DNA from: Desertivirga xinjiangensis
GTDB taxonomy: Bacteria > Bacteroidota > Bacteroidia > Sphingobacteriales > Sphingobacteriaceae
NCBI RefSeq assembly: GCF_024436435.1
Contig: NZ_JAFMZP010000002.1
Coordinates: 682,001 to 746,000, forward strand
Reading direction: 5' to 3'
Length of the DNA: 64,000 nt
Both the position numbers and the translations under genes were made by a program. The notes under the pieces are model-generated. The model worked only from the letters and a program-made list of their open reading frames with translations. It had not been told where the DNA came from and ran no database searches. This document shows positions 10,232-46,054 of the stretch, piece after piece. Each line of letters starts with the position of its first letter. Positions within the stretch are counted from its first letter, which is position 1.

Positions 10232-11722
10232 TTAGGTGCTTAAAGTTACCAGCGTGTTCTTGTCAACTACTATAAAATCTGACTTCGCAGAATCGCAGGT
10301 AGGGCAGCAATAGGTTTCCGGCAAAAGATCGAAAGTTGTAGCTGGAGAAATGTTATTAGTAGCATCGCCATAAAAAGAGTCATAAACAGTAAAACAATTT
10401 TTGCATTGATGGACGTATGTAATTTGCTCTTCCTTAACTGCTTCGACAGGTTCGGGAGCTGTGAACAAATCACCGTCGGTCTGTAAATTATAAAAGAAGT
10501 CGCACAAGGCTATTAATGATGCCGACAGTCCATCGTAAGTTACACCTTGCTCATACATAACAAAATCTTTAGAGTTTGGATTGAAGTCTCTGGTATACAA
10601 AATGTCAAATTTATCCTGCTGATCATTCTCTGATTTTTCCAGCTTTTTAATTATCACAGAGCCAAATAATCCAGTTTTTGGGTTGATTTTGATCGCAAAG
10701 CTAAGCTTGAATGTTCTCAGGTCTACGAGGTCGAACTGGCGGACGAGGTGCTGCTTTAATTTTAAGCCGTATTCGCAAAGATCTTCAAGCTGCCAGTTTA
10801 ACTCGTTTGACGCATGTCTCACATTAATCCGGTTTTTTGCCAGGATCCAGTTCCAGGATTTTCTATCTTCAGGTTTTATGTCCTTTATGATCAGCGATTT
10901 CCAGGGAGTGGTGTAAATTTGACCTACACGTGTTTGCAGACAAATAGAGGAGATGTCTTTTAAAAATTTAACAGTGTATTGTTCATTCCTATTGTATATA
11001 CCCAACCAATATTTGCCGCCGTATCTATTGAATCCCTCATAATAAGGAAGCTGGAAGTCGGGAAGGGTGAGGGCCTCGCCAGGCGTTTGGTTAATAAAAC
11101 GTTTAAGGGCTGATATCTTTTTGAATAATACAGCTCCATCTACTTGTTCTCTGTCGTAAAACAGATCTTTGCTGGCAAAAATATATTCTTCAATCAGCTT
11201 GCTGAGGGATGCAATGTCTTCTGTGTAGATCAAACTGGGCCAGGCATAAAAAGTGTTTGTTCTAGGGAACCGGATGTGCAAATGCCAGAAATTGCTGATC
11301 GCCGAAGCTATGAAGTTCAGGTTTCCCGTAAAAAAAGGGATGAAAGTCTGATTATTATCAGCAAGGTTAATTTTAAGTCTGGGTTTAAAATCGAAGCCAT
11401 CCAGGATATCCTTGTACACGCCTTCGCGCAGCCAGTTTGAGATGCTAAAAATATCTTCAGAAACATATGAGCTTATGATATTAGGCCATTGGTCCGAATC
11501 AAGCTCATATTCAACGTCAGCAATTAAAAATTCATGTTCGAGGTCTTCCAGCTGCTGATCATTGACCAGCAGGAAGAGTTGTTGCCTGTTTCCTAAACTG
11601 ACAGTTTCAATTCCTGCTTTTTCCGCTGCATTTAAAATTCCAAGCAAATCTCCTGCAGCAACAATACCACCCGGAAGGTTAATTTTTATGATGTGCTTTG
11701 TTTCAATCAATTCTTCTGTCAT
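10232..11722 (-). CDS. sulfite/nitrite-reductase-like half-domain protein with C-terminal rubredoxin
   Basis: The 496-residue protein starts like the ferredoxin-like half-domain of sulfite and nitrite reductases (HIIKINLPGGIVAAGDLLGIL) and ends with a rubredoxin-type iron site, C440-x2-C443 and C473-P-T-C476. The central 350 residues contain only scattered cysteines, and I cannot find the paired cysteines that hold the [4Fe-4S]-siroheme centre. It is therefore probably an electron-transfer or scaffold subunit rather than a nitrite reductase. The start codon overlaps the stop of the nitrate reductase gene by 4 nt, so the two are translationally coupled, and rubredoxin may feed electrons to that enzyme. 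Function beyond this is inference. Confidence 0.75.
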   Translation of the reverse strand: MTEELIETKHIIKINLPGGIVAAGDLLGILNAAEKAGIETVSLGNRQQLFLLVNDQQLEDLEHEFLIADVEYELDSDQWPNIISSYVSEDIFSISNWLREGVYKDILDGFDFKPRLKINLADNNQTFIPFFTGNLNFIASAISNFWHLHIRFPRTNTFYAWPSLIYTEDIASLSKLIEEYIFASKDLFYDREQVDGAVLFKKISALKRFINQTPGEALTLPDFQLPYYEGFNRYGGKYWLGIYNRNEQYTVKFLKDISSICLQTRVGQIYTTPWKSLIIKDIKPEDRKSWNWILAKNRINVRHASNELNWQLEDLCEYGLKLKQHLVRQFDLVDLRTFKLSFAIKINPKTGLFGSVIIKKLEKSENDQQDKFDILYTRDFNPNSKDFVMYEQGVTYDGLSASLIALCDFFYNLQTDGDLFTAPEPVEAVKEEQITYVHQCKNCFTVYDSFYGDATNNISPATTFDLLPETYCCPTCDSAKSDFIVVDKNTLVTLST

Positions 11723-14700
11723 ACTGCGGCGCTTTCAACTAATGCATTTTTTAAACTTTCTTCTAATATCCTTTTTACCTCCGGACGGCATGAGCCACAG
11801 CCCGTACCTGCGCCAGTTGATAAGCAAATTTCCTTAAGGTCTGTACATCCTGCCTGGATTCTGTTCTTTATGTTTTCAGTACCTACATTATTACAGCTGC
11901 AAACAAGTTTTCCCAATACAGGGTCAGCTTTGGTGCCACTTCGCAGGAGTTGCAATCTTTTCTCACTCAATTCCGTTTTATTACCAATAAGTTCTCTGAA
12001 TTCCTGAAATTCTGATTTATCCCCTATAAGTATGGTTCCAACCAGCCTGTCTTCGTGTATGATGCACTTTTTGTAGTAACGTTTTGCCTTGTCGATAAAA
12101 ACGATCTCTTCGTAGTTTTTATCATCCGGACTTTCCGGAATTCCTATACTACAGAGGTCAAATCCCTGGATCTTGATAATGTTCATAAACAAACTGCCCT
12201 CGTAGAAGCTAGCAATATCGCCGTTTAGAAATTTTGCTACCACCTCGGCTTGTTGTTCAGCCGCTGCAGTTATCCCATAAAGCGTTCCTTCGAATTCGGC
12301 AATTTCGCCGATGGCAAAAACGGATGGGTCGCTCGTCTGAAGCCGATCATTTACCACCACACCCCGCTTGCATTCCAAACCACTTTCGCGGGCGAGCTCA
12401 AGGTTTGGGCTGGTGCCGATCGCCAGGATCAGTGCGTCGCAATTTATCTTATGACCACTGGCCAGCCCTACACCCGTAAGCTTGGACCGTCCGTAAAATA
12501 GCTGTACTTCATCATTATAGTAAATGTCGCAACCCTGGTCTACCATTTCTTCATGGAGCAGCTGGCTTCCCAACGGATCTAACTGCCGGTTCAAAAATCT
12601 GGATATCCTTTGGACAATGGTGATCTTGATGCCTATCTCACGTAAAGACGCAGCCATCTCGAGTCCTAATAGACCTCCGCCCACAATTACGACATGCCCG
12701 CCTTTTGAAACATGCTTTTTAAAATTGTCAGCGTCAGTGCGGCTACGCATGGTAAAAATACCGGGCAGAGAAGGTACATTACGCGGAACTGCCGCCCTGC
12801 TGCCTGTAGCCATGATCAGAACATCGTAATAGGTTTTAACACCCCGGGAATCGATAACAAATTTTTCCTCCCTGTTCACCATTTCGACACTTACTCCTCT
12901 GAGCAGACGTATGTTATACTCTGGTTCTTCTGAATCTTTCATTTTAACCAGCTGTTCCCATTTCTGCTCGCCACTGATATAGTCAGGAAGCATTACCCGG
13001 TTGTAAAAGGGAAAGTTTTCCTTGCTGAAAATGGTTATCTCATCCTCCTGATTGATTTCACGATAGCTTTTTACGAAACCATAAGAGCCGGCGCCTGCAC
13101 CGATCACTACAATACGTTGCACGGGCTTCTGATACTTTTCCACCCGGACTGCGCAGTATTTGAAATCAGGCTCTTTCGAGATGGGATCAACCAGTGTACT
13201 GGTAATGTTGTTTGTGCGGTTTAAATCGTTACCAAGGATTTTTCCCCAATGCATGGGAAGAAAAACAATACCAGTTTTTATACTGCCGGAAACTTTAGCT
13301 TTTACCCGCACATCTCCACGACGAGAACTTACAGACACAATATCTCCATCACTTATTGATAGATTTTCAGCATCCGTTGGATGGATCTCCAAATAAGCTT
13401 GCGAGATGTGTTTTTTCAACTTATTGACTTTGCCGGTTTTCGTCATGGTATGCCAGTGATCTCTGACCCGCCCTGTGGTAAGAATGAAGGGAAAGTCAGC
13501 ATCGGGCAATTCACTCAATAAGGTATCGTCGGGAGAATGGATTATTGCTTTTTTGCTCGTGGTATAGAACTTCCGGTCGGTAAAAAGCCGTTTTGTTCCC
13601 GATTCTGTCTTTTTGTTGAAAGGCCATTGTATGGTCCTGTGTTTTTTAATTATACTGTAATCTAGCCCATGAATATTAAGGTTGGTTTTTACAGTAAGCC
13701 TGGTATGTTCCCTGTAAATATCCTCCATGCTGGAGTAGTCAAATCCTTTATAGCCCATTTTACGCGCAAAGCGGCAAATGATCTCGGCGTCGGGGAGAGC
13801 TTCCCCCGGAGCCTCAATAATTTTATTTAGATAACTTATCCTTCTCTCAGAATTAGTCATGGTGCCCTCTTTTTCGGTCCATGCTGCTGCTGGAAGAATA
13901 ACATCAGCGTATTTAAGAGTCTCAGGCTTATTGCTTACCTCCTGAACAACAACGAACTTTGCTTTTTTTAAAGCTTGTTCTGCGAAACGGGTATTGGGCA
14001 GGCTTGTAAGCGGGTTGGTACAAAGAATCCAGATGGCTTTCAAGCGCCCATCGTGGAGGGCTTCGAACATTTCTGTAGCTGTCAGGCCCGGTTTTTCTGA
14101 AATAGATGTACCTCCCCAAAACTTTTCAACTTCCTGACGGTGTAAGGGATTTGCCAGGTTCCGGTGCGCAGGCAAAAGGTTTGACAATCCTCCAACTTCA
14201 CGGCCGCCCATCGCATTTGGTTGGCCGGTTAGTGAGAATGGGCCTGAACCCGGCTTGCCAATATGTCCTGTGATGAGATTCAGATTGATCAGGCTCAGGT
14301 TTTTATTGGTTCCAACAGAACTCTGATTTAAGCCCATTGTCCACATGCTTAAAAATCCTTTTGCATTTCCAATGTATTCAGCGGCAAGATGGATGTCGTC
14401 TTCACTTAGGCCGCAAATTACAGAAGCTTCAAATATCGTTTTTTGAAACACCAGTTCCCTGTATTTTTCAAAACCTTCGGTATGATCTTTCACAAATTCC
14501 AGGTCGATACAGCCGTTCTGAATTAAAATACGACCGATTGCATGGTTTAGGGTGATGTCTGTACCAGGATTAATCTGTAGGTGTAAATCGGCAATAGAAG
14601 CGCTGTCTGTGACCCGTGGATCTACCACAATAATCTTAATGCCGGGATTTGCCGCTTTATGTGCTTCCACCCGGCGCCAGATTATTGGATGGCACCAGGC

Positions 14701-15246
14701 AGGGTTGGCCCCGGTAACATAAAAGCAATCAGCAAGTTCTATATCATCGTAGCAAACCGGGACGCTGTCTTCACCCAGTGCCATTTTGTAACCCACAACC
14801 GCACTGCTCATGCAAAGTCTGGAATTGGTGTCTATGTTATTACTGCCGATAAATCCTTTTATTAATTTATTGATCACATAGTATTCCTCAGTTAAGCACT
14901 GACCGGAAGCATAAAAGGCTACTGAATCGGGGCCGTATTTCTCGATAAAGGTTTTAAAAACGGCAGCTGTACGTTCCAGAGCGCTATCCCATGAGACACG
15001 CTGCATAGGCATATTTTTGTTGAAACGCATTTCGGGGTACAACAGACGGTCTGTCTTGTCATTTACTGTGTAACCCAGGTTTAAGCCTTTGCTGCAAAGC
15101 ATTCCCCGGTTAACCGGATGGTCCTTGTCGCCACTTACAGAAATTGTCCCGTTTTTTTCGATCTCGACCTCAATGCCACAACCCACGCCGCAATAGCAGC
15201 AGGTTGTGGTTAATTTCTGTGCGTTGTGTTTGTGCTCCATTATCAA
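11719..15246 (-). CDS. nasA: assimilatory nitrate reductase fused to FAD/NAD oxidoreductase and BFD [2Fe-2S] domains
   Basis: This 1175-residue cytoplasmic enzyme reduces nitrate to nitrite. Residues 1-700 form the molybdopterin reductase: [4Fe-4S] motif C16-x2-C19-x3-C23-x27-C51, probable Mo ligand C145 (NSRLCMSSA), and the dinucleotide-binding domain with ILTTGRVRDHWHTMT. From about residue 708 a pyridine-nucleotide-disulfide-type FAD/NAD module follows (IVVIGAGAG, VVIVGGGLLGLEMA, FAIGEIAEF), resembling the N-terminus of NirB. The last 65 residues are a BFD-like [2Fe-2S] domain (C1116, C1118, C1150, C1153). The fusion suggests NAD(P)H-FAD-FeS electron supply within one chain. No signal peptide is present, as expected for assimilatory enzymes. 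It needs bis-MGD from the neighbouring moa/mob genes. Confidence 0.93.
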   Translation of the reverse strand: MIMEHKHNAQKLTTTCCYCGVGCGIEVEIEKNGTISVSGDKDHPVNRGMLCSKGLNLGYTVNDKTDRLLYPEMRFNKNMPMQRVSWDSALERTAAVFKTFIEKYGPDSVAFYASGQCLTEEYYVINKLIKGFIGSNNIDTNSRLCMSSAVVGYKMALGEDSVPVCYDDIELADCFYVTGANPAWCHPIIWRRVEAHKAANPGIKIIVVDPRVTDSASIADLHLQINPGTDITLNHAIGRILIQNGCIDLEFVKDHTEGFEKYRELVFQKTIFEASVICGLSEDDIHLAAEYIGNAKGFLSMWTMGLNQSSVGTNKNLSLINLNLITGHIGKPGSGPFSLTGQPNAMGGREVGGLSNLLPAHRNLANPLHRQEVEKFWGGTSISEKPGLTATEMFEALHDGRLKAIWILCTNPLTSLPNTRFAEQALKKAKFVVVQEVSNKPETLKYADVILPAAAWTEKEGTMTNSERRISYLNKIIEAPGEALPDAEIICRFARKMGYKGFDYSSMEDIYREHTRLTVKTNLNIHGLDYSIIKKHRTIQWPFNKKTESGTKRLFTDRKFYTTSKKAIIHSPDDTLLSELPDADFPFILTTGRVRDHWHTMTKTGKVNKLKKHISQAYLEIHPTDAENLSISDGDIVSVSSRRGDVRVKAKVSGSIKTGIVFLPMHWGKILGNDLNRTNNITSTLVDPISKEPDFKYCAVRVEKYQKPVQRIVVIGAGAGSYGFVKSYREINQEDEITIFSKENFPFYNRVMLPDYISGEQKWEQLVKMKDSEEPEYNIRLLRGVSVEMVNREEKFVIDSRGVKTYYDVLIMATGSRAAVPRNVPSLPGIFTMRSRTDADNFKKHVSKGGHVVIVGGGLLGLEMAASLREIGIKITIVQRISRFLNRQLDPLGSQLLHEEMVDQGCDIYYNDEVQLFYGRSKLTGVGLASGHKINCDALILAIGTSPNLELARESGLECKRGVVVNDRLQTSDPSVFAIGEIAEFEGTLYGITAAAEQQAEVVAKFLNGDIASFYEGSLFMNIIKIQGFDLCSIGIPESPDDKNYEEIVFIDKAKRYYKKCIIHEDRLVGTILIGDKSEFQEFRELIGNKTELSEKRLQLLRSGTKADPVLGKLVCSCNNVGTENIKNRIQAGCTDLKEICLSTGAGTGCGSCRPEVKRILEESLKNALVESAAV

Positions 15247-15272: not shown

Positions 15273-16583
15273 TCAGGCTGTTTTTAGCTCAGCAGGATTA
15301 ATATCGGCAACAGAGGTTTCTTCTTCCGATCTGGTTTCAAAAGGAATAACGGCTATAAGAATTCCAATAATTGCTACCGCTATGCCCAGGTAAAGAAAAG
15401 CATCAGCATACGTGATTGATTTCGCCTTGAAAAGGAAGCCAGCGAGCATCGCTCCAATATTACCGCCGGCACCCACTATTCCGCTTACAGAACCGATAGC
15501 TTTTTTATTTATAAAAGGCACAATAGAATAGGTCCCACCGTTTGCCATTTTAAGAAATAGCGCGAAGAACAACATAGCGATGATGGCAGCCGTTAGTGTG
15601 CCGGCCTGCGCAAACAATGCAATTCCGACTCCTTCCAGGATAAGGAAAGCACCCAATAATAGACCTTTTCCTTTCAATCCATGTATTTTTCCCACTTTAT
15701 CACTAAAATATCCGCCCAGGGCACGGGCGAAGATATTCATCAATCCGAATGAAGCGGCGAGTGCTCCGGCCATGATCAGCGAAGCATTGAAGTTATCCAC
15801 AAAAAAAGTCGCAGCTACATTGTCAACGGTAATTTCGATTCCGAAACAAGCAGCATAGGCGAAAGATAAGGCCCATGTGCGGTAATCTTTCAGTGCCAGT
15901 TTGAAGGACCCTTTTGACTTTTGAGTGGCAGCACGTTTGATATCTTTATAATTGCCTGCAGGAGTGTCTTTAGTATATTTATAGTAGATAAAGGCCATAA
16001 TCACCAGAATCAGGCCCGGAATGATCATCGCATACCTCCATGAGTTAGCTGCTGTAGTGAATCCCAGCGTAACGAATCCGGACGCGATTAAAGGCATTAC
16101 AAGGTTGGTAACACCTCCGCCAAGGTTTCCCCAGCCACCGGATACTGCGTTTGCTGTACCAACTATACTTGGCGCAAACATCATCGAGGTGTGGAATTGG
16201 GTAATTACAAATGAGGCTCCGATGATGCCGATAATGAACCGGAACAAAAGGAAAGATTCATAACTATTACTAAAACCTATACACATTACGGGAACGGCTC
16301 CAATGAGTAAAAGAATTGTGTACGATAATCGTGGTCCAAGGCTGTCGCATAATTTTCCTATGATCAGGCGGGCTATTATAGTAGCCGACACTGAAGCAAT
16401 AATGATATTTCCAACCTGTTCCTTATCAAGTCCCAACTGTTCCCGCACGAGGGGCATCAGTGGTGCAATTCCGAACCAACCAAAAAAACAAAAAAAGAAA
16501 GTTACCCAGGTAATGTGAAAAGTACGCATTTGAATGCCTGAAGTGCTGAATATATTAAGTTTGCTTAGAGGTTTTGCAGTCAT
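15273..16583 (-). CDS. narK: NarK/NasA-type nitrate/nitrite MFS transporter
   Basis: The 436-residue major facilitator protein with about 12 membrane segments belongs to the nitrate/nitrite porter family. Both nitrate signature stretches are visible: GGWGNLGGGVTNLV in the fifth segment and GIVGAGGNIGAMLAG in the eleventh. It imports nitrate, or exchanges nitrate for nitrite, across the inner membrane. It lies 26 bp upstream of the reductase gene and 46 bp downstream of the ATPase gene. The symbol reflects family membership; uptake rather than exchange is assumed from the assimilatory context. Confidence 0.92.
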   Translation of the reverse strand: MTAKPLSKLNIFSTSGIQMRTFHITWVTFFFCFFGWFGIAPLMPLVREQLGLDKEQVGNIIIASVSATIIARLIIGKLCDSLGPRLSYTILLLIGAVPVMCIGFSNSYESFLLFRFIIGIIGASFVITQFHTSMMFAPSIVGTANAVSGGWGNLGGGVTNLVMPLIASGFVTLGFTTAANSWRYAMIIPGLILVIMAFIYYKYTKDTPAGNYKDIKRAATQKSKGSFKLALKDYRTWALSFAYAACFGIEITVDNVAATFFVDNFNASLIMAGALAASFGLMNIFARALGGYFSDKVGKIHGLKGKGLLLGAFLILEGVGIALFAQAGTLTAAIIAMLFFALFLKMANGGTYSIVPFINKKAIGSVSGIVGAGGNIGAMLAGFLFKAKSITYADAFLYLGIAVAIIGILIAVIPFETRSEEETSVADINPAELKTA

Positions 16584-16629: not shown

Positions 16630-17397
16630 TTAGTTACAGGAAGAATACCTGTCAAATAAAAAGTTTAGGAGTCTGTCCTTAATTTCTATATACAAGGGGT
16701 TTTGTAGCATATTTTTTTTGTGACGGGGTCTGGGGAGAGCAACGTCTATGATGGTCTTTATTGCCGGCGCCGGCGCGTGATTCATCAGCACTACGCGGTC
16801 TGAAAGAATTATTGCTTCTTCAAGATCGTTTGTTACTACAATAATAGTTTTCTGGCGGTTGTCGAGATGCCATAGCTTGAGAAGTTCCATATGCATTAGT
16901 CCTTTTGTTGTTGCATCCAGAGCCAGGAAGGGTTCGTCAAGCAGCAGGATCTTTGGGTTCATGGCAAATGACCGTGCAACAGCGGTCAGTTGTTTGATGT
17001 CGGGTGGGAGCTGTCCGGGAAGTTTATCTTTGTATGGGTCAAGATTTACCATGGTAAGCGTGTTGCGTGTTGTTTGCTGTTTTTCTGACTCTGGGTTGTT
17101 GGGCATAACCTTGTCAATCGCATCATAAACATTCTGATACACTGACAGCCATGGGACAAACCTGTCATTTTGAAGAACAATCTCCGAGTTATATTCCCGT
17201 CCAGTAGTGCCGCGGCTGCTTGCGGTGTAATCGCTGTTACCTGGATTAACTAAAGCTGCAATCTTGTTTATTAAGGTGGATTTCCCAGAGCCTGAGTGTC
17301 CCATGATCGCAATGATTTCGCCCTTTTTAATCTCCAGGTTAATGTCTTTAATAAATACAGACCTTTTAGCCCCGGGTAGTTTTGTAGTGAATTCCAT
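16630..17397 (-). CDS. orphan ABC-type ATPase with degenerate signature and H-loop, NrtC/D-like
   Basis: The 255-residue protein aligns with nitrate/taurine-type ABC ATPases: Walker A GHSGSGKST (33-41), Q-loop Q76 in VLQNDRFVPWLSV, Walker B and DEP (KILLLDEPFLALD, 149-161). The signature that should read LSGGM is LPPDI (130-134), and the switch histidine is asparagine N190 (VVTND where VTHD is usual). ATP binding looks intact, but the sandwich-dimer hydrolysis chemistry is probably impaired. No permease or binding-protein gene accompanies it; it lies between a porin and the NarK transporter. It may be a nucleotide-responsive regulator of transport, or a relic. Both are inference. Confidence 0.85.
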   Translation of the reverse strand: MEFTTKLPGAKRSVFIKDINLEIKKGEIIAIMGHSGSGKSTLINKIAALVNPGNSDYTASSRGTTGREYNSEIVLQNDRFVPWLSVYQNVYDAIDKVMPNNPESEKQQTTRNTLTMVNLDPYKDKLPGQLPPDIKQLTAVARSFAMNPKILLLDEPFLALDATTKGLMHMELLKLWHLDNRQKTIIVVTNDLEEAIILSDRVVLMNHAPAPAIKTIIDVALPRPRHKKNMLQNPLYIEIKDRLLNFLFDRYSSCN

Positions 17398-17406
17398 AGC
17401 CTAAGA

Positions 17407-18936
17407 TTATCCGCGGGTTTTAAAAAGAAAATCAGGCCGGATATTCAACATCAGGTATCCAAATGAGGGCGACCTATCATAGTCGATAGAAATATCCTGC
17501 CCTTTGGCCTGGGAAAGGGCGCTTGTAGCCATCATCGCTGAATATCCCAGTTCAATGTTAGTAAATCTATTCAGCGAATAATTTAAAACCAGATCTAGTT
17601 CGTGTGCCAGGTGCTTTTTAGTGGAAGCAGCCAGAGAATGATTGGAATCAAAGCGATGCAAATCCGCCGATACATAATATTTTGTAGTAGTATACTTTGT
17701 TTTAAAGTAATAGTCCTTCAAGCCGGAAGCTGGCGAACCTGTGGGTGCGTAGAAGTAATCCATATATCCCCAGAACTTATGGGGTGTTCCGTACAAAGGG
17801 TCGAATCGTTTGGAGTCGGATGCCAATGTGGTGGTCTTATTGCCGGAAAGAACATCGAATCCAGGGCCAAAACTAAACTTTCCTTTAGTATAACTGGCTA
17901 AAACTGAAGCATGAAATGCATTCAATTTTTTTCCGTCGCGATCTTCTCCTAGTTGATGATAATAAGCTCCCTGGATAGTGACATTTTTTATGGCAGAACT
18001 AAGCATGCCGCCGAACGTGTAGCGGTCATTGGTGCCTTTTACGTCGTATACTCTGCCATATATAGTTCCATCAGTAATCCCGTCATTATCTGCATCGGTG
18101 ACTACCGATACTGGCCTGTACTTTGAAAAGTTATCTTTGAATGCAAGGAAAGACAGTTTGGTCTGATTGATCTTTTTACTTGCATACAAGCTGACGAAAC
18201 TTTTGTAATTCTGGTTTCCGGCATTAGTATTTGCCGGGTTAGCATAAGAAGGGTTGCCTGTAGCGGAGCTGTTTCCATTTGCAGAAGTTAAAGGAATTAT
18301 TCCGGAGGGGGTAGATACTAAAATACCACGATCTGTTTTCACGGTCGCCGGAACGTTTCCAGGGGTATAGGCGGTGCCGCTAGAGTTCTCAGTATTTTGG
18401 TTGTAGGCATATCCCATATCTACTTGCCATCCATGATGTAAAGCTTTAATCAGGGCCATATCGAATCGACGTCCTTGCTGGAGCCAGTCGAGATTGCCGA
18501 TCAGGCGGGCGTCGTCGTAAATTAGCTCCTGACGACCAACCTTAAATGAAAGAAAATCAAGGATCTTAAACTTTTGAGTAGAATCCGTCTTATCGGCTAA
18601 AATCAGTTCTGCCCAGCCTTCATGAAGCATTAGTTTGTTACCGTCGGCAGGGCTGATTGTTGAAGCGTCCTGTCCCCATACTCTAACATCTTGTAACGTG
18701 ACTCCAAAATTTACCTTATCCCATTTATAACCAAAATTGAGTCGCGTTCGTTGCGACACGAAGGACGCGGGAGAGGCGGTCTCAGGCGTTAAATTCGCAA
18801 AACCGTCTCTGACTTCTAAACGAGGCCTTAATTGTCCGGTCAAACTTATTTGAGCTTTTGCCGGAGTGACAGACAGCGCTGCGACCGCAGTCAGACTAGT
18901 TGTTAAGAACCGTTGAATGATAACTTTTTTGTACAT
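17407..18936 (-). CDS. outer-membrane porin, alginate-export family
   Basis: The 509-residue protein has a signal peptide (about residues 1-28, ending AKA) and a beta-barrel pattern typical of the alginate_exp family (ISLTGQLRPRLEVRDGF, RTRLNFGYKW, QQGRRFDMALIKALHHGWQVDMGYAYNQ). The family includes AlgE-like and other substrate-selective outer-membrane channels. It is the first gene of the nitrate/molybdopterin run, 9 bp before the ATPase gene, so it may let nitrate or molybdate across the outer membrane rather than alginate; that is inferred from position. A long AT-rich leader region separates it from the divergent FNR-type regulator. Confidence 0.82.
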   Translation of the reverse strand: MYKKVIIQRFLTTSLTAVAALSVTPAKAQISLTGQLRPRLEVRDGFANLTPETASPASFVSQRTRLNFGYKWDKVNFGVTLQDVRVWGQDASTISPADGNKLMLHEGWAELILADKTDSTQKFKILDFLSFKVGRQELIYDDARLIGNLDWLQQGRRFDMALIKALHHGWQVDMGYAYNQNTENSSGTAYTPGNVPATVKTDRGILVSTPSGIIPLTSANGNSSATGNPSYANPANTNAGNQNYKSFVSLYASKKINQTKLSFLAFKDNFSKYRPVSVVTDADNDGITDGTIYGRVYDVKGTNDRYTFGGMLSSAIKNVTIQGAYYHQLGEDRDGKKLNAFHASVLASYTKGKFSFGPGFDVLSGNKTTTLASDSKRFDPLYGTPHKFWGYMDYFYAPTGSPASGLKDYYFKTKYTTTKYYVSADLHRFDSNHSLAASTKKHLAHELDLVLNYSLNRFTNIELGYSAMMATSALSQAKGQDISIDYDRSPSFGYLMLNIRPDFLFKTRG

Positions 18937-21419: not shown

Positions 21420-22247
21420 TTATTTGTTTGAGTCTGATATTCTTTTTATTTCTTTTATTAATAACGGAAAAGCAGGTTCTGTCATCCCATGTCCGTATCC
21501 ATCTAGTTCAAGAAGAGTAGTTTGTTTATGGCCAGCTAATTTCATCATTCTCATGAGGTATGCATTTTCTTCATAGCGGCCAAGCATTTCAAGCTCCCTG
21601 TCGCCAGTGATGAGGAGTAAAGGAGGAGCATCTGCTCTTACATGAAACAAGGGGGCATAATGGTCTATAGTTGGCTGCAATTCTTTGATGCCTTTTTCAT
21701 TGCGTATCGTAAAATGAGTAATGGCCTGGCCGCTCATGGATATGATTCCTGCGATTTTGTTTGCATCAATGTTGAAAGCATTTAGCCACGTCTTGTCTAG
21801 TCCGACCATAGTAGCAAGATAAGCTCCTGCCGAATGCCCGGAAAGGAAGATCCTGGAAGGGTCGCCTCCATAGGTTGCTATATTGTTGAATGCCCACGCT
21901 ATGGAAGCAGCGGCATCTTTAATATAATCGGGAGCATTTACTTTTGGCGATAAGCGGTAATTGACGCCGATGATACAAAGTCCTTTTTCTTTAAAAGCCG
22001 CTGGGATTTCTTTGCTGCCCTGGGTTAACCCGCCACCATGGAACCAGACAACGGTGCTGAATCCCTTTTGATTTTTTGGATAATAAATGTCTAAAATGCA
22101 GCGCTCATTGATATAACTATCCATATTGCTTTGTTTTTCAGAATAGTACCGGATATTGGTCGTAATATTATATTCTATCTTCTGAGCTGAAGCAAATGTT
22201 ACCCAGCTAAACAAAACACATGCAAAAGAAATTTTCTGAATGTTCAT
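21420..22247 (-). CDS. secreted alpha/beta hydrolase, hormone-sensitive-lipase type
   Basis: The 275-residue protein has a signal peptide (about 1-21, ending ASA) and the HSL-type esterase motifs HGGG (oxyanion hole, WFHGGGLTQG) and GHSAG (nucleophile Ser, LSGHSAGAYLA). The acid is probably in ITGDRE and the histidine in DGYGHGM. It should hydrolyse small esters in the periplasm. It starts 1 nt after the moaCB stop and precedes moeA by 36 bp, so it is almost certainly co-transcribed with cofactor genes although no link to molybdenum is known. Confidence 0.85.
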   Translation of the reverse strand: MNIQKISFACVLFSWVTFASAQKIEYNITTNIRYYSEKQSNMDSYINERCILDIYYPKNQKGFSTVVWFHGGGLTQGSKEIPAAFKEKGLCIIGVNYRLSPKVNAPDYIKDAAASIAWAFNNIATYGGDPSRIFLSGHSAGAYLATMVGLDKTWLNAFNIDANKIAGIISMSGQAITHFTIRNEKGIKELQPTIDHYAPLFHVRADAPPLLLITGDRELEMLGRYEENAYLMRMMKLAGHKQTTLLELDGYGHGMTEPAFPLLIKEIKRISDSNK

Positions 22248-22248
22248 A

Positions 22249-23199
22249 TTAATGTCCTCCGCCTTTCATCATTTTTCTTGCATGAAAAACTGCTGGTAAA
22301 ATAGCTTCTAAGGATTCTCTTGCGCCATCCGAACTGCCAGGCAGCGTTACAATAAGTGTATGTGCAATGGAACCTGCGACACCCCGGCTCATCATAGCTA
22401 AAGGAGTACGCATCTGCCCAAAGTTTCTCATGGCTTCTGTTATTCCACCTGCATCCCGCTCCAAAATTTCGCTGACGGCACTGACTGTGTTATCCCTGGG
22501 TCCGAGGCCTGTTCCGCCAGTGGTGAAAATAAACTGGATATCTTCAGCTACCCACTGTTTTATCTGAGTCTGGATTAAATGCTTCTCATCAGGCAGGATA
22601 CTGTAATACTTTACCTCAGCTCTTGCTTCTTCAAGCATGCGTTTTATCAGTAAGCCGCTGCGGTCTTCGCGTGTGCCCTGTGCACAGGAGTCTGAGCAAA
22701 CCAGCACAGCACAAGTAGGCGAGGTGGCGAAGAACTTTTTCCGGTCGCTTTTTCCCCCCTTTTTTTCCAATAACTTAATATGTCCTATTTCAAGGGCGGT
22801 ATCTACTGGTTTGAGCATATCATATATTTCCAGTGCGGCTACACTTACTGCTGTGAGTATTTCCATCTCAATCCCTGTCCGGCCTATGGATTTAGCTTCT
22901 CCATAAATCACAATTCCTGCTTTTGACAACACCGCCTCAGAAAACTGATCAAAGTGAATGGCGGGGTCAAGAAACTCAAAGGAAATGTCCATACCATCGA
23001 TAGCTACAGGGTGGCAATGAGGAAGCAGTTGCGGCGTAAGCTTGGCGCCCATAAAACCAGCTGCCCTGGCTACATCAAACAGATTACCTTTGGGCAGCTG
23101 GTTATCCTTAATTTTATTGATAGTTTCTGGAGAACAAAATATAATTCCTGTTGCTCTTGCCGAACGTAACGTTATTTGCTTATGGGTAATATCCCTCAT
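22249..23199 (-). CDS. moaCB: bifunctional MoaC/MoaB molybdenum cofactor protein
   Basis: The 316-residue fusion has an N-terminal MoaC (cyclic pyranopterin monophosphate synthase; KQITLRSARATG, LLPHCHPVAIDG, EIYDMLKPVD with catalytic Asp/Lys, LLEKKGGKSD) and a C-terminal MoaB/MogA domain (VLVCSDSCAQGTREDRSG, FTTGGTGLGPRDNT, TLPGSSDGARES) that adenylylates molybdopterin. The ATG at 23199 begins the conserved MoaC sequence (MRDITHKQ). The frame extends to 23271, but that would overlap the preceding gene. It completes the pathway between MoaA and MoeA. Confidence 0.93.
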   Translation of the reverse strand: MRDITHKQITLRSARATGIIFCSPETINKIKDNQLPKGNLFDVARAAGFMGAKLTPQLLPHCHPVAIDGMDISFEFLDPAIHFDQFSEAVLSKAGIVIYGEAKSIGRTGIEMEILTAVSVAALEIYDMLKPVDTALEIGHIKLLEKKGGKSDRKKFFATSPTCAVLVCSDSCAQGTREDRSGLLIKRMLEEARAEVKYYSILPDEKHLIQTQIKQWVAEDIQFIFTTGGTGLGPRDNTVSAVSEILERDAGGITEAMRNFGQMRTPLAMMSRGVAGSIAHTLIVTLPGSSDGARESLEAILPAVFHARKMMKGGGH

Positions 23200-23248
23200 A
23201 TTTTTATATGTATAGCAAATATTGGAATTAATTTTCGTAAAACCTGTC

Positions 23249-23674
23249 TTAAATAAAGGTGGATGATACATCAGTTATTTTCCAGCCCCGGCTAGTGTAC
23301 ACTATATTCAGAAACTCAACTTTTGAAAAATTCTCATACTTCATAGTTACTTTAACCACAGCTTGGCGCGGATTCGACTCCATAATTGTATAATCAGCAA
23401 TACAGTTCTGTTGTATGTTTTCGTTGTGCTTGAAAATGCTCAGCATTTCAATTTTGCCGTGTCGGATAATTCGCTGGCCGCGGGTACTTGTAAACTTTAT
23501 CTCGGGATCTAAAACCTGTGCTAGGCCTTTAAGTTTACCTAAACTTACGGCATCCAAATAGGTTTTTACCGCATGGTTCATGCTTAGCTTCTCAGTAGCT
23601 GCTTCATCTGATGCAAATGCACTAAGTGTAAATACTATCAATACCAGAGTGCCTAAAGATCTTAATGTTTTCAT
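23249..23674 (-). CDS. NTF2-like / putative lumazine-binding family secreted protein
   Basis: The 141-residue protein has a signal peptide (1-21, ending AFA) and an NTF2-like cone fold pattern: an initial helix (VKTYLDAVSLGKLKGLAQVL), a DPEIKFTSTRG strand, and terminal strands (QAVVKVTMKYENFSKVEFLNIVYT, GWKITDVSSTF). These match the SnoaL/lumazine-binding-2 superfamily common in Bacteroidetes. The specific ligand is unknown. It is the first gene of the minus-strand moaCB group, 50 bp upstream of moaCB. Confidence 0.72.
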   Translation of the reverse strand: MKTLRSLGTLVLIVFTLSAFASDEAATEKLSMNHAVKTYLDAVSLGKLKGLAQVLDPEIKFTSTRGQRIIRHGKIEMLSIFKHNENIQQNCIADYTIMESNPRQAVVKVTMKYENFSKVEFLNIVYTSRGWKITDVSSTFI

Positions 23675-43355: not shown

Positions 43356-43378
43356 CATTCAACATTGTTAATCGGCAC

Positions 43379-46054
43379 ATGAGCATTTCCAGAACGTACA
43401 ATCCAAAAGAAACAGAAGATAAATGGTATAAATACTGGCTTGAAAAGGCCTTTTTTAAATCGGTGCCCGATGAGCGCGAACCTTACACAATTGTAATTCC
43501 TCCTCCTAACGTCACTGGTGTATTGCACATGGGGCATATGCTGAACAATACCATACAGGACGTCCTTATAAGAAGAGCCAGGATGCTTGGGAAAAATGCA
43601 TGCTGGGTTCCTGGAACCGATCATGCGTCAATAGCTACTGAGGCTAAAGTGGTGGCTATGCTTAAAGAAAGGGGGATAGAAAAAAAAGATATAAGCCGTG
43701 AGGAGTTTTTAAAATATGCATGGGAGTGGAAAGAAAAATATGGAGGCATAATATTAAAGCAACTTGAAAAGCTTGGAGCTTCCTGCGATTGGGACCGTAC
43801 TAGCTTTACCATGGATGAAGCCCTTTCTGAGGCGGTTACTGATACTTTTATTCATCTCTATAAAAAAGGATTGGTTTATCGGGGAGTTAGAATGGTGAAC
43901 TGGGATCCGAAGGGCCTGACTGCAGTGTCAGATGAAGAGGTGATCCGTAAAGAAGTAAATCAAAAACTATATTATATAAAGTATAAGGTATCCGGAAGCG
44001 AGGAATATCTGGTGATTGCTACCACTCGCCCGGAGACTATTATGGCTGATACAGCCATCTGTATTAATCCTCATGATGAACGCTATAGTCATCTTAAAGG
44101 AAAGAAAGTTTTGATTCCTTTAATTAACCGCGAAATACCAGTTATTGAAGACGAATACGTGGATGTAGCTTTTGGTACGGGCTGCCTGAAAGTAACTCCT
44201 GCACACGACCTCAATGACTATGAATTGGGTTTAAAGCATAACCTACCGGTAATTGATATTCTTAACGACGACGGAACTTTAAATGACAAAGCTGAAATTT
44301 TAATAGGAGTGGAGCGTTTCGCCGCCAGGAAAAAGATTGCCGAACTTCTGGAAGAGGCAGAACAACTGGAAAAAGTTGAAGATTATAAATCTCAGATCGG
44401 TTTTTCAGAACGGACTGATTCTGCAATTGAACCTAAATTGTCGCTTCAGTGGTTTTGCAAAATGGACGTGATGGCCAAACCTGCGCTGGAATACGTTCTG
44501 AATGGCGATGTTAAACTTATCCCTGACAAGTTTATAAATACCTATCGCCATTGGATGGAAAACGTTAAAGACTGGTGTATTAGCCGGCAATTGTGGTGGG
44601 GACAAAGGATACCGGCCTGGTACTATAAAAATGAAGTTGTAGTAGCTAAATCCAAGGACGAAGCAGTAGAACAGTTGTTATTAGCCGAGTCTAGAAATGG
44701 ACTTTCGGATGAGGAAAAGGCTGCTTTCAAAGAGGAGGCTAAGTCGCTTATCTCTCAGGATGAGGATGTGGTTGATACCTGGTTTTCTTCATGGTTGTGG
44801 CCCATTTCGGTGTTTGACCCTTCTGTTTGCGGTCACCCGGAAAATCCGGGTAATGCCGATCTTAACTATTATTACCCCACTAACGACTTGGTAACTGCTC
44901 CTGAAATCCTCTTCTTTTGGGTAGCCCGGATGATCATGGCGGGACACGAATTTAAGGGCGAAGTGCCTTTCAAAAATGTCTATCTCACTGGAATTGTTAG
45001 GGACAAACTAGGTAGAAAAATGTCTAAATCGCTGGGCAATTCCCCCGATCCGATTGATCTTATTGACAAATATGGAGCGGATGGCGTACGGGTCGGGATG
45101 TTGCTGTGCTCACCCGCAGGAAACGATTTGATGTTTGATGAATCTTACTGCGAACAGGGCAGGAACTTTGCCAATAAGATTTGGAATGCCTTCCGTTTGG
45201 TTAAGGGGTGGGAAATCGACACTCAGCTCGGTGCTGCAAATGAAGCTGCTGTTGAATGGTTCGATAACCGTTTTAATGAGGCTTTGGCAGAGATTGAAGA
45301 TAACTTTGCACAATACCGCTTATCTGAAGCTTTAATGGCCTCTTACAAACTGGTGTGGGATGATTTCTGTTCCTGGTATCTTGAAATGGTTAAACCGGCT
45401 TATCAACAACCTGTAGATCAGTTTACGTATAAGGCAACCAAAGAATTTTTTGAAAGGATACTGAAGCTTCTGCATCCTTTTATGCCCTTTCTTACAGAAG
45501 AACTATGGCATGACGATGAGATATTCGCAAGCCGTTCAGAGCTGGATTGCTGTATAGTGTCGAACTATCCGGTTTCAGTAGATGTAAAAAAAGGTCTGTT
45601 GAAAAACGTTGAGGTAGTAAAGCAGGTAATCTCTGAAGTTCGAAACATCAGGAATTCTAAACAGATCTCTCCAAAAGAAAGTCTGCCATTATCTGTAAAA
45701 ATAAATTCTGAAATACCTTATCAGCGATATTCCGGTATCATAAACAAACTGGCTAACCTTAGTGAATTTATTGTAGTAACCGAGAAGGTTCAGGGAGCCA
45801 CAAGTTTTATGTCGGACAGGGATGAGTTTTTTGTTGTCTTACAAGGAAGTCTCGACGTGGAAGCCGAACGCGAGCGTATCAGCAAAGAAATAAAATATCT
45901 TAAAGGTTTCCTTAAGTCGGTGGATGCGAAGCTTTCAAATGAACGTTTTGTAAATAATGCTAAAGCTGAGGTGGTGGATAACGAGCGTAAAAAGAAAGCT
46001 GATGCCGAGGCAAAGATCCTGATATTGGAAGAAGGCTTAAGCGCGATCAAATAA
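43379..46054 (+). CDS. valS: valyl-tRNA synthetase
   Basis: The 891-residue class I synthetase charges tRNA-Val. It has the HIGH motif as HMGH (PPPNVTGVLHMGHMLNN, near residue 47), an editing domain (about 200-340; TTRPETIMADTA), the KMSKS motif (KLGRKMSKSLGNSPDP), an anticodon-binding domain, and a C-terminal coiled-coil arm (about 825-891, DVEAERERISKEIKYLKGFL). All expected domains are present. Confidence 0.96.
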   Translation: MSISRTYNPKETEDKWYKYWLEKAFFKSVPDEREPYTIVIPPPNVTGVLHMGHMLNNTIQDVLIRRARMLGKNACWVPGTDHASIATEAKVVAMLKERGIEKKDISREEFLKYAWEWKEKYGGIILKQLEKLGASCDWDRTSFTMDEALSEAVTDTFIHLYKKGLVYRGVRMVNWDPKGLTAVSDEEVIRKEVNQKLYYIKYKVSGSEEYLVIATTRPETIMADTAICINPHDERYSHLKGKKVLIPLINREIPVIEDEYVDVAFGTGCLKVTPAHDLNDYELGLKHNLPVIDILNDDGTLNDKAEILIGVERFAARKKIAELLEEAEQLEKVEDYKSQIGFSERTDSAIEPKLSLQWFCKMDVMAKPALEYVLNGDVKLIPDKFINTYRHWMENVKDWCISRQLWWGQRIPAWYYKNEVVVAKSKDEAVEQLLLAESRNGLSDEEKAAFKEEAKSLISQDEDVVDTWFSSWLWPISVFDPSVCGHPENPGNADLNYYYPTNDLVTAPEILFFWVARMIMAGHEFKGEVPFKNVYLTGIVRDKLGRKMSKSLGNSPDPIDLIDKYGADGVRVGMLLCSPAGNDLMFDESYCEQGRNFANKIWNAFRLVKGWEIDTQLGAANEAAVEWFDNRFNEALAEIEDNFAQYRLSEALMASYKLVWDDFCSWYLEMVKPAYQQPVDQFTYKATKEFFERILKLLHPFMPFLTEELWHDDEIFASRSELDCCIVSNYPVSVDVKKGLLKNVEVVKQVISEVRNIRNSKQISPKESLPLSVKINSEIPYQRYSGIINKLANLSEFIVVTEKVQGATSFMSDRDEFFVVLQGSLDVEAERERISKEIKYLKGFLKSVDAKLSNERFVNNAKAEVVDNERKKKADAEAKILILEEGLSAIK

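Follow-up and report, generated by a model that had tools for sequence, protein, structure and literature searches.

A probable relic of the nitrate importer ATPase NrtD, left without its partner genes in a NarK-containing nitrate operon of Desertivirga xinjiangensis

The window, a stretch of 64,000 nucleotides from the genome of Desertivirga xinjiangensis, carries a nitrate operon whose genes all lie on the reverse strand. In the direction of reading, a gene for an outer-membrane porin with an Alginate_exp match (17407..18936) is followed by an NrtD-type ABC ATPase gene of 255 codons, here designated nrtD* (16630..17397), and a gene for a NarK-type nitrate/nitrite transporter of the major facilitator superfamily (MFS) (15273..16583; TIGR00886), presumably the remaining uptake route. 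Downstream are a gene (11719..15246) that joins the nitrate reductase catalytic domains to a NirB-like flavoprotein plus a BFD [2Fe-2S] domain, and a gene encoding a protein with an NIR_SIR ferredoxin-like half domain and a C-terminal rubredoxin (10232..11722), which, judging from these domains, is a probable nitrite reductase. The porin and the NarK-type MFS transporter had been named as the neighbors of the ATPase in a first-pass annotation of this DNA, and the locus annotation agrees, with NarK scoring 310.3 bits, just under the TIGR00886 cut-off of 311.7. This NarK shares 85% identity with the NarK of congener G031 but only 61% with the one from congener G006 (L051, L052), although the reductase stands closer to G006 (88%) than to G031 (84%). 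Apparently, two narK lineages alternate in the nitrate operon. Promoter-like sites numbered 10 (shuffled sequences, 10.6 ± 3.1) and terminator-like sites 8 (shuffled sequences, 5.0 ± 2.0), and we attach no significance to either count. The operon sits between molybdenum cofactor genes, with MobA-like and MoaA genes to one side and MoeA and MoaC genes to the other; this MoaC is fused to a MoCF_biosynth domain (22249-23271). The MoeA and MoaC genes are separated by an alpha/beta hydrolase gene with a BD-FAE match (21420-22247). Of the 16 loci of relatives compared below, 10 contain both genes, and none of these 10 showed an intervening ORF of at least 120 aa.

The nrtD* ORF starts with ATG and runs through 255 codons with neither stop codons nor frameshifts. 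Its product retains three elements of a functional ABC ATPase, namely, Walker A (GHSGSGKST, residues 33–41), the Q-loop glutamine (Q76), and Walker B (LLLDEP, residues 151–156), and is without two others, the LSGG signature and the H-loop histidine. The signature codons 130–134 (16996..17010, reverse strand; coordinates derived from the sequence) read LPPDI instead of LSGGM, and codon 190 (16828..16830, likewise derived and on the reverse strand) encodes Asn instead of the H-loop His (H190N). The intact motifs, DEP included, and both substitutions had been listed in the first-pass annotation and were borne out when the sequence was re-read. PGPDRG and part of the N-terminus have also been lost relative to the NrtD proteins of relatives. 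The best NCBIfam match was ntrCD (TIGR01184), with a score of 215.1 bits, below the cut-off of 291.8 that the intact NrtD of a congener surpasses (317.3 bits). Each ATP site of an ABC dimer is completed by the signature of the opposite subunit, and hydrolysis involves the H-loop His; a normal, hydrolyzing homodimer is therefore not expected from a chain that has LPPDI and Asn. As regards turnover, the earlier suggestion that the protein may bind ATP without turning it over is thus a reasonable expectation from the lost residues. The best match found for nrtD* was the NrtD of congener G006 (59% identity). An assembly artifact was considered and rejected, since the gene lies inside an 812-kb contig and the operon is otherwise collinear with those of relatives.

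When 12.9–19.9 kb around the loci of 16 relatives were compared, the gene order was porin, a gene of ~400 aa, a gene of ~262 aa, ATPase, and narK in all 16; the reductase came next after narK in 15, and the contig of the sixteenth ends shortly past narK. The two extra genes, in the four of the 16 loci that were scanned, encode NMT1_2 (A gene) and BPD_transp_1 (B gene) proteins, and the permease of G006, the one B gene product compared with NCBIfam, scores above the ntrB cut-off. The window order is porin-nrtD*-narK, as against porin-nrtA-nrtB-nrtD-narK in the relatives, and nrtD* occupies the operon place of NrtD, downstream of the porin and upstream of narK-nasC. Only 9 bp (17398..17406, reverse strand) separate the porin stop from the ATPase start, where the 16 relatives carry nrtA and nrtB, making this gap the putative deletion junction; the gap from nrtD* to narK is 46 bp. 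Furthermore, the ATPase has 255 residues, compared with 280–294 in 21 orthologues (20 family members and L071, measured from the first ATG), and the shortfall is mainly N-terminal. The C-terminal tail of the porin departs from the TKPxAIK ending found in five of six relatives compared, and the sixth, congener G031, also deviates. Taking synteny and length together, the simplest reading would be one deletion reaching from the end of the porin gene into nrtD.

The first-pass annotation had described the ATPase as an orphan, with no permease or binding protein nearby, and this holds genome-wide as far as the PF00528 and PF13379 searches see. In the 5.5-Mb host genome (rated 99.98% complete), the check for a dedicated permease elsewhere returned only two PF00528 (BPD_transp_1) matches, identified as the phosphate permeases PstC and PstA, and no NrtB-type permease. 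The PF13379 search of the whole genome likewise found no NrtA-type binding protein; 12 of 14 control genomes were positive in that search. Within the host genome, the next best ATPase matched nrtD* with an E-value of 1.9e−17 and 29% identity. Scanning genome contigs with the nrtD* protein turned up only two distant, uninformative relatives (31% and 27% identity). A tblastn search of the window with 16 NrtA-like and 16 NrtB-like relatives detected no relic of nrtA or nrtB near the locus, the best match (E-value 0.006) falling at 43373-43540, far from the operon.

NrtD homologues are uncommon in the family. They were found in 22 of 399 family genomes, the window's own included (E-value ≤1e−30), and, at 1e−40, in 17 of 201 genomes of a family draw and 13 of 300 of an order draw. 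Both of the other genomes of the genus that were examined carry one, with 59% and 54% identity. All 21 family homologues besides nrtD* read LSGGMKQ and VTHD. In a class-wide search, 10 of 395 genomes matched, comprising the window's own, six homologues, and three genomes with a two-ATPase system described below; the six homologues all keep LSGG and the His. Across these 27 close homologues (21 from the family and six class-wide), an NrtB-like gene was present within the fetched 1.5 kb in every case and narK in 22, and neither an altered signature nor an absence of NrtB was seen in any other NrtD. The first-pass annotation had asked whether LPPDI and Asn are conserved among homologues and co-occur with narK and not with NrtB-like permeases, and had named intact motifs in most orthologues as the outcome that would speak against its reading. 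This outcome was observed, with LSGG and His intact in 27/27 and NrtB adjacent in 27/27. The same counts contradict a switch on NarK or the reductase as a conserved design and indicate that the changes in nrtD* are lineage-specific. One of the six class-wide homologues, L072 (G568:C5:274297-275085), belongs to a different family and is interrupted by an in-frame TAA, although its motifs and its nrtB neighbor are present; it is possibly a second, independent case of nrtD loss.

Compared with the NrtD of the one-ATPase NrtABD-type importers of the same family (L035; congener G006), nrtD* shares the operon place, Walker A and B, and Gln76, but lacks LSGGM, the H-loop His, PGPDRG, part of the N-terminus, and the partners NrtA and NrtB. 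The closest solved sequences are the NrtD and CmpD chains 8wm7_D and 9u9z_D (E-values 1.6e−57 and 3.1e−57), which we take to be of cyanobacterial origin and parts of complete transporters; unlike nrtD*, they keep SGG and His. The earlier statement that these residues are retained in known nitrate ABC systems is true of the 27 close homologues and of the solved NrtD, NrtC, and CmpD chains aligned, but fails for a related system with two ATPases. Judging by titles and the beginnings of abstracts, we found no literature on an orphan NrtD or on a porin-nrtD*-narK operon.

This two-ATPase version of the importer is present in three other families of the class. We read 24 loci (L135-L157 and L079), drawn from 22 of 144 genomes of the family of G609, from G546 (1 of 13 in its own family), and from G694 (class-wide search). 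In all 24, one ATPase reads LSGGM[RK]Q and ITND, with Asn in place of the H-loop His, and its neighbor reads LSQGM[QK]Q and ITHD. NrtA-like, NrtB-like, and both ATPase genes stand side by side in all five loci read more widely (L158-L162), with a NasC-like reductase in the fetched stretch in three of them. These ATPases share about 40–42% identity with the intact NrtD of the congener. In a heterodimer, the two deviations would come together in a single composite ATP site and leave the other canonical, and the motifs thus point to a conserved importer with one degenerate ATP site out of two, a pattern seen in every locus (24/24). In contrast, NrtD, CmpD, and NrtC keep SGG and His in the five solved-structure alignments examined, and a limited search found no literature on an asymmetric two-ATPase importer of the nitrate type. 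An H-loop Asn and an altered signature (LSQG) occur here as altered motifs do in nrtD*, but judging from the motifs the two ATPases form a complementary pair, whereas nrtD* carries both defects in one partnerless chain. The two-ATPase system does not explain nrtD*, and descent from its clade was rejected, since nothing found matches nrtD* better than the NrtD of the congener (59% identity).

The extent of change in nrtD* exceeds ordinary variation. Among 125 columns that were invariant in 25 intact relatives, 44 were changed in nrtD*, whereas a leave-one-out control gave 0–3 changed columns for any relative; two of the 27 homologues, L084 and the stop-broken L072, were left out of this count. 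At variable columns, nrtD* differed from L035 at 65/127, from L071 at 67/127, and from L036 at 80/129, compared with mutual differences of 40–52 of 127 among the relatives compared. The extra change relative to L035 amounted to 17–29% at variable columns (a rough hand estimate) and 35% at invariant columns, the pattern that lost constraint predicts. The changes were unevenly spread: invariant columns were altered at 1/9 positions in Walker A, 1/13 in Walker B and the D-loop, and 2/9 in the H-loop region, and at 7/8 before the Q-loop, 4/8 at residues 76–83, and 8/14 in the signature region. Walker A and B/D together had 2/22 changed, compared with 42/103 elsewhere (Fisher p = 0.006, with regions picked post hoc).

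Other measures suggest that constraint has not entirely gone. Simulated drift of equal size yielded an expectation of 4.4–5.5 stops, compared with none in nrtD*, and only 0.2–0.7% of runs (160–180 substitutions) contained no stop, with 0.4% and 1.1% in a second set. These simulations used L035 as a stand-in ancestor, assumed base frequencies, and substitutions only; indels would lower the probability of a stop-free frame. BLOSUM-positive changes at invariant columns (18/44) were more conservative than the neutral expectation of 0.27 ± 0.07, and the share of second-position changes at invariant codons was 20/48 against an expected 0.52 ± 0.07, only 1.4 SD from neutral. A codon branch model based on 10 sequences and 250 codons rejected ω = 1 for the nrtD* branch (lnL −5471.46 versus −5460.14) and gave ω = 0.019, no different from the rest of the tree (lnL −5460.18 with one ω). 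This branch covers the periods both preceding and following the disappearance of the partners, which the model could not separate because dS is saturated at about 15, and its ω says little on the later period. Thus, the 44/125 altered columns speak for lost constraint, but the lack of stops, the conservative bias, and the branch model point to a residual constraint on nrtD*.

Nitrate operons without the ABC branch are common in the family. A NasC-type reductase like that of the window occurs in 152 of 399 family genomes (E-value ≤1e−300), and all 22 nrtD-bearing genomes fall among them. In 20 nrtD-less loci, picked by hand from the implied 130, narK adjoins nasC in every case, and no match to nrtA, nrtB, or nrtD was found at E-value ≤1e−4. 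A porin match lies directly before narK in nine of the 20, with match-to-match gaps of 12–62 bp, and one of these porins (L131) is only 30% identical; no porin match adjoins narK in the other 11. The family searches score few first-look candidates per genome, so that very divergent relics may escape these counts. The lineages concerned may have lost nrtABD or may never have had it. Since nrtD-less operons with narK are common, NarK does not need nrtD*, and the window operon, which looks like an intermediate between the full and the ABC-less operon, probably now relies on NarK.

We consider it probable that nrtD* is the surviving ATPase of a nitrate importer that decayed after its partner genes were lost. 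The ancestral protein would have powered an NrtABD importer as its ATPase, within an operon of the order porin-nrtA-nrtB-nrtD-narK-nasC. As synteny and length suggest, nrtA, nrtB, and roughly 25–40 N-terminal codons of nrtD would have been removed by a deletion that began where the porin gene ends and reached into the start of nrtD, and nitrate uptake would then have proceeded through the retained NarK. With the permease gone, the constraint imposed by transport would have been lifted, and the signature, the H-loop, and many other invariant positions may have drifted until nrtD* could presumably no longer drive transport. Because its frame has stayed open, translation of nrtD* probably continues, with some weak constraint left, although the gene may be in the course of being lost. 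Its persistence could reflect what remains of its fold or of ATP binding, the avoidance of polarity, or a newly acquired role.

The last of these possibilities amounts to an explanation of its own, in which the orphan was repurposed by keeping the cis ATP-binding parts and losing those that work across the dimer and in hydrolysis, becoming an ATP-binding soluble regulator of NarK or the reductase. We regard this as unlikely. It would account for a frame left open despite large change, the conservative bias, the sparing of Walker A, Walker B, and the D-loop, and the retention of nrtD* between porin and narK. However, nrtD* is a singleton among the 21 other family homologues (399 genomes) and the six from the class, operons with narK and without nrtD are common, and outside the Walker parts the invariant columns changed freely before the Q-loop, at residues 76–83, and in the signature region. 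A precedent comes from Synechocystis, where PII, according to a published report (PMC6603209), controls nitrate uptake through NrtC and NrtD, so that NrtD-type ATPases can, on that account, be signaling targets. The more specific proposal that nrtD* kept ATP binding, lost hydrolysis, and turned from a motor into a soluble sensor of energy or nitrogen status, partnering NarK or the fused reductase, seems quite unlikely.

An open frame alongside large amino acid change would also be expected if the protein were useless and the frame stayed open only because a stop would cause transcriptional polarity on narK-nasC. Such an effect would fit the place of nrtD* ahead of narK and the reductase in what is presumably a single transcript, 9 bp from the porin gene and 46 bp from narK, but polarity leaves the conservative bias and the intact Walker A and B unaccounted for, and in lineages that lack the gene the problem does not arise in the first place, a simpler solution. 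We therefore judge it very unlikely as the sole cause; because it overlaps with the decay of a surviving importer ATPase, the probabilities that we attach to the explanations do not sum exactly to one. That nrtD* works with a permease elsewhere, or with another ATPase as an asymmetric heterodimer, is extremely improbable. The H-loop Asn and altered signature that are natural in all 24 two-ATPase loci lend this some plausibility, but that system splits the deviations over two chains and nrtD* bears both on one; moreover, the 99.98% complete genome offers only PstC and PstA as BPD_transp_1 matches and no close second ATPase.

The case of nrtD* cautions against inferring function from lost motifs before orthologues have been compared. 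If its open frame turns out to be under selection, nrtD* would represent a transporter motor changing its role. As it stands, nrtD* looks like an intermediate stage at which a NarK-bearing operon is losing its ABC nitrate importer.
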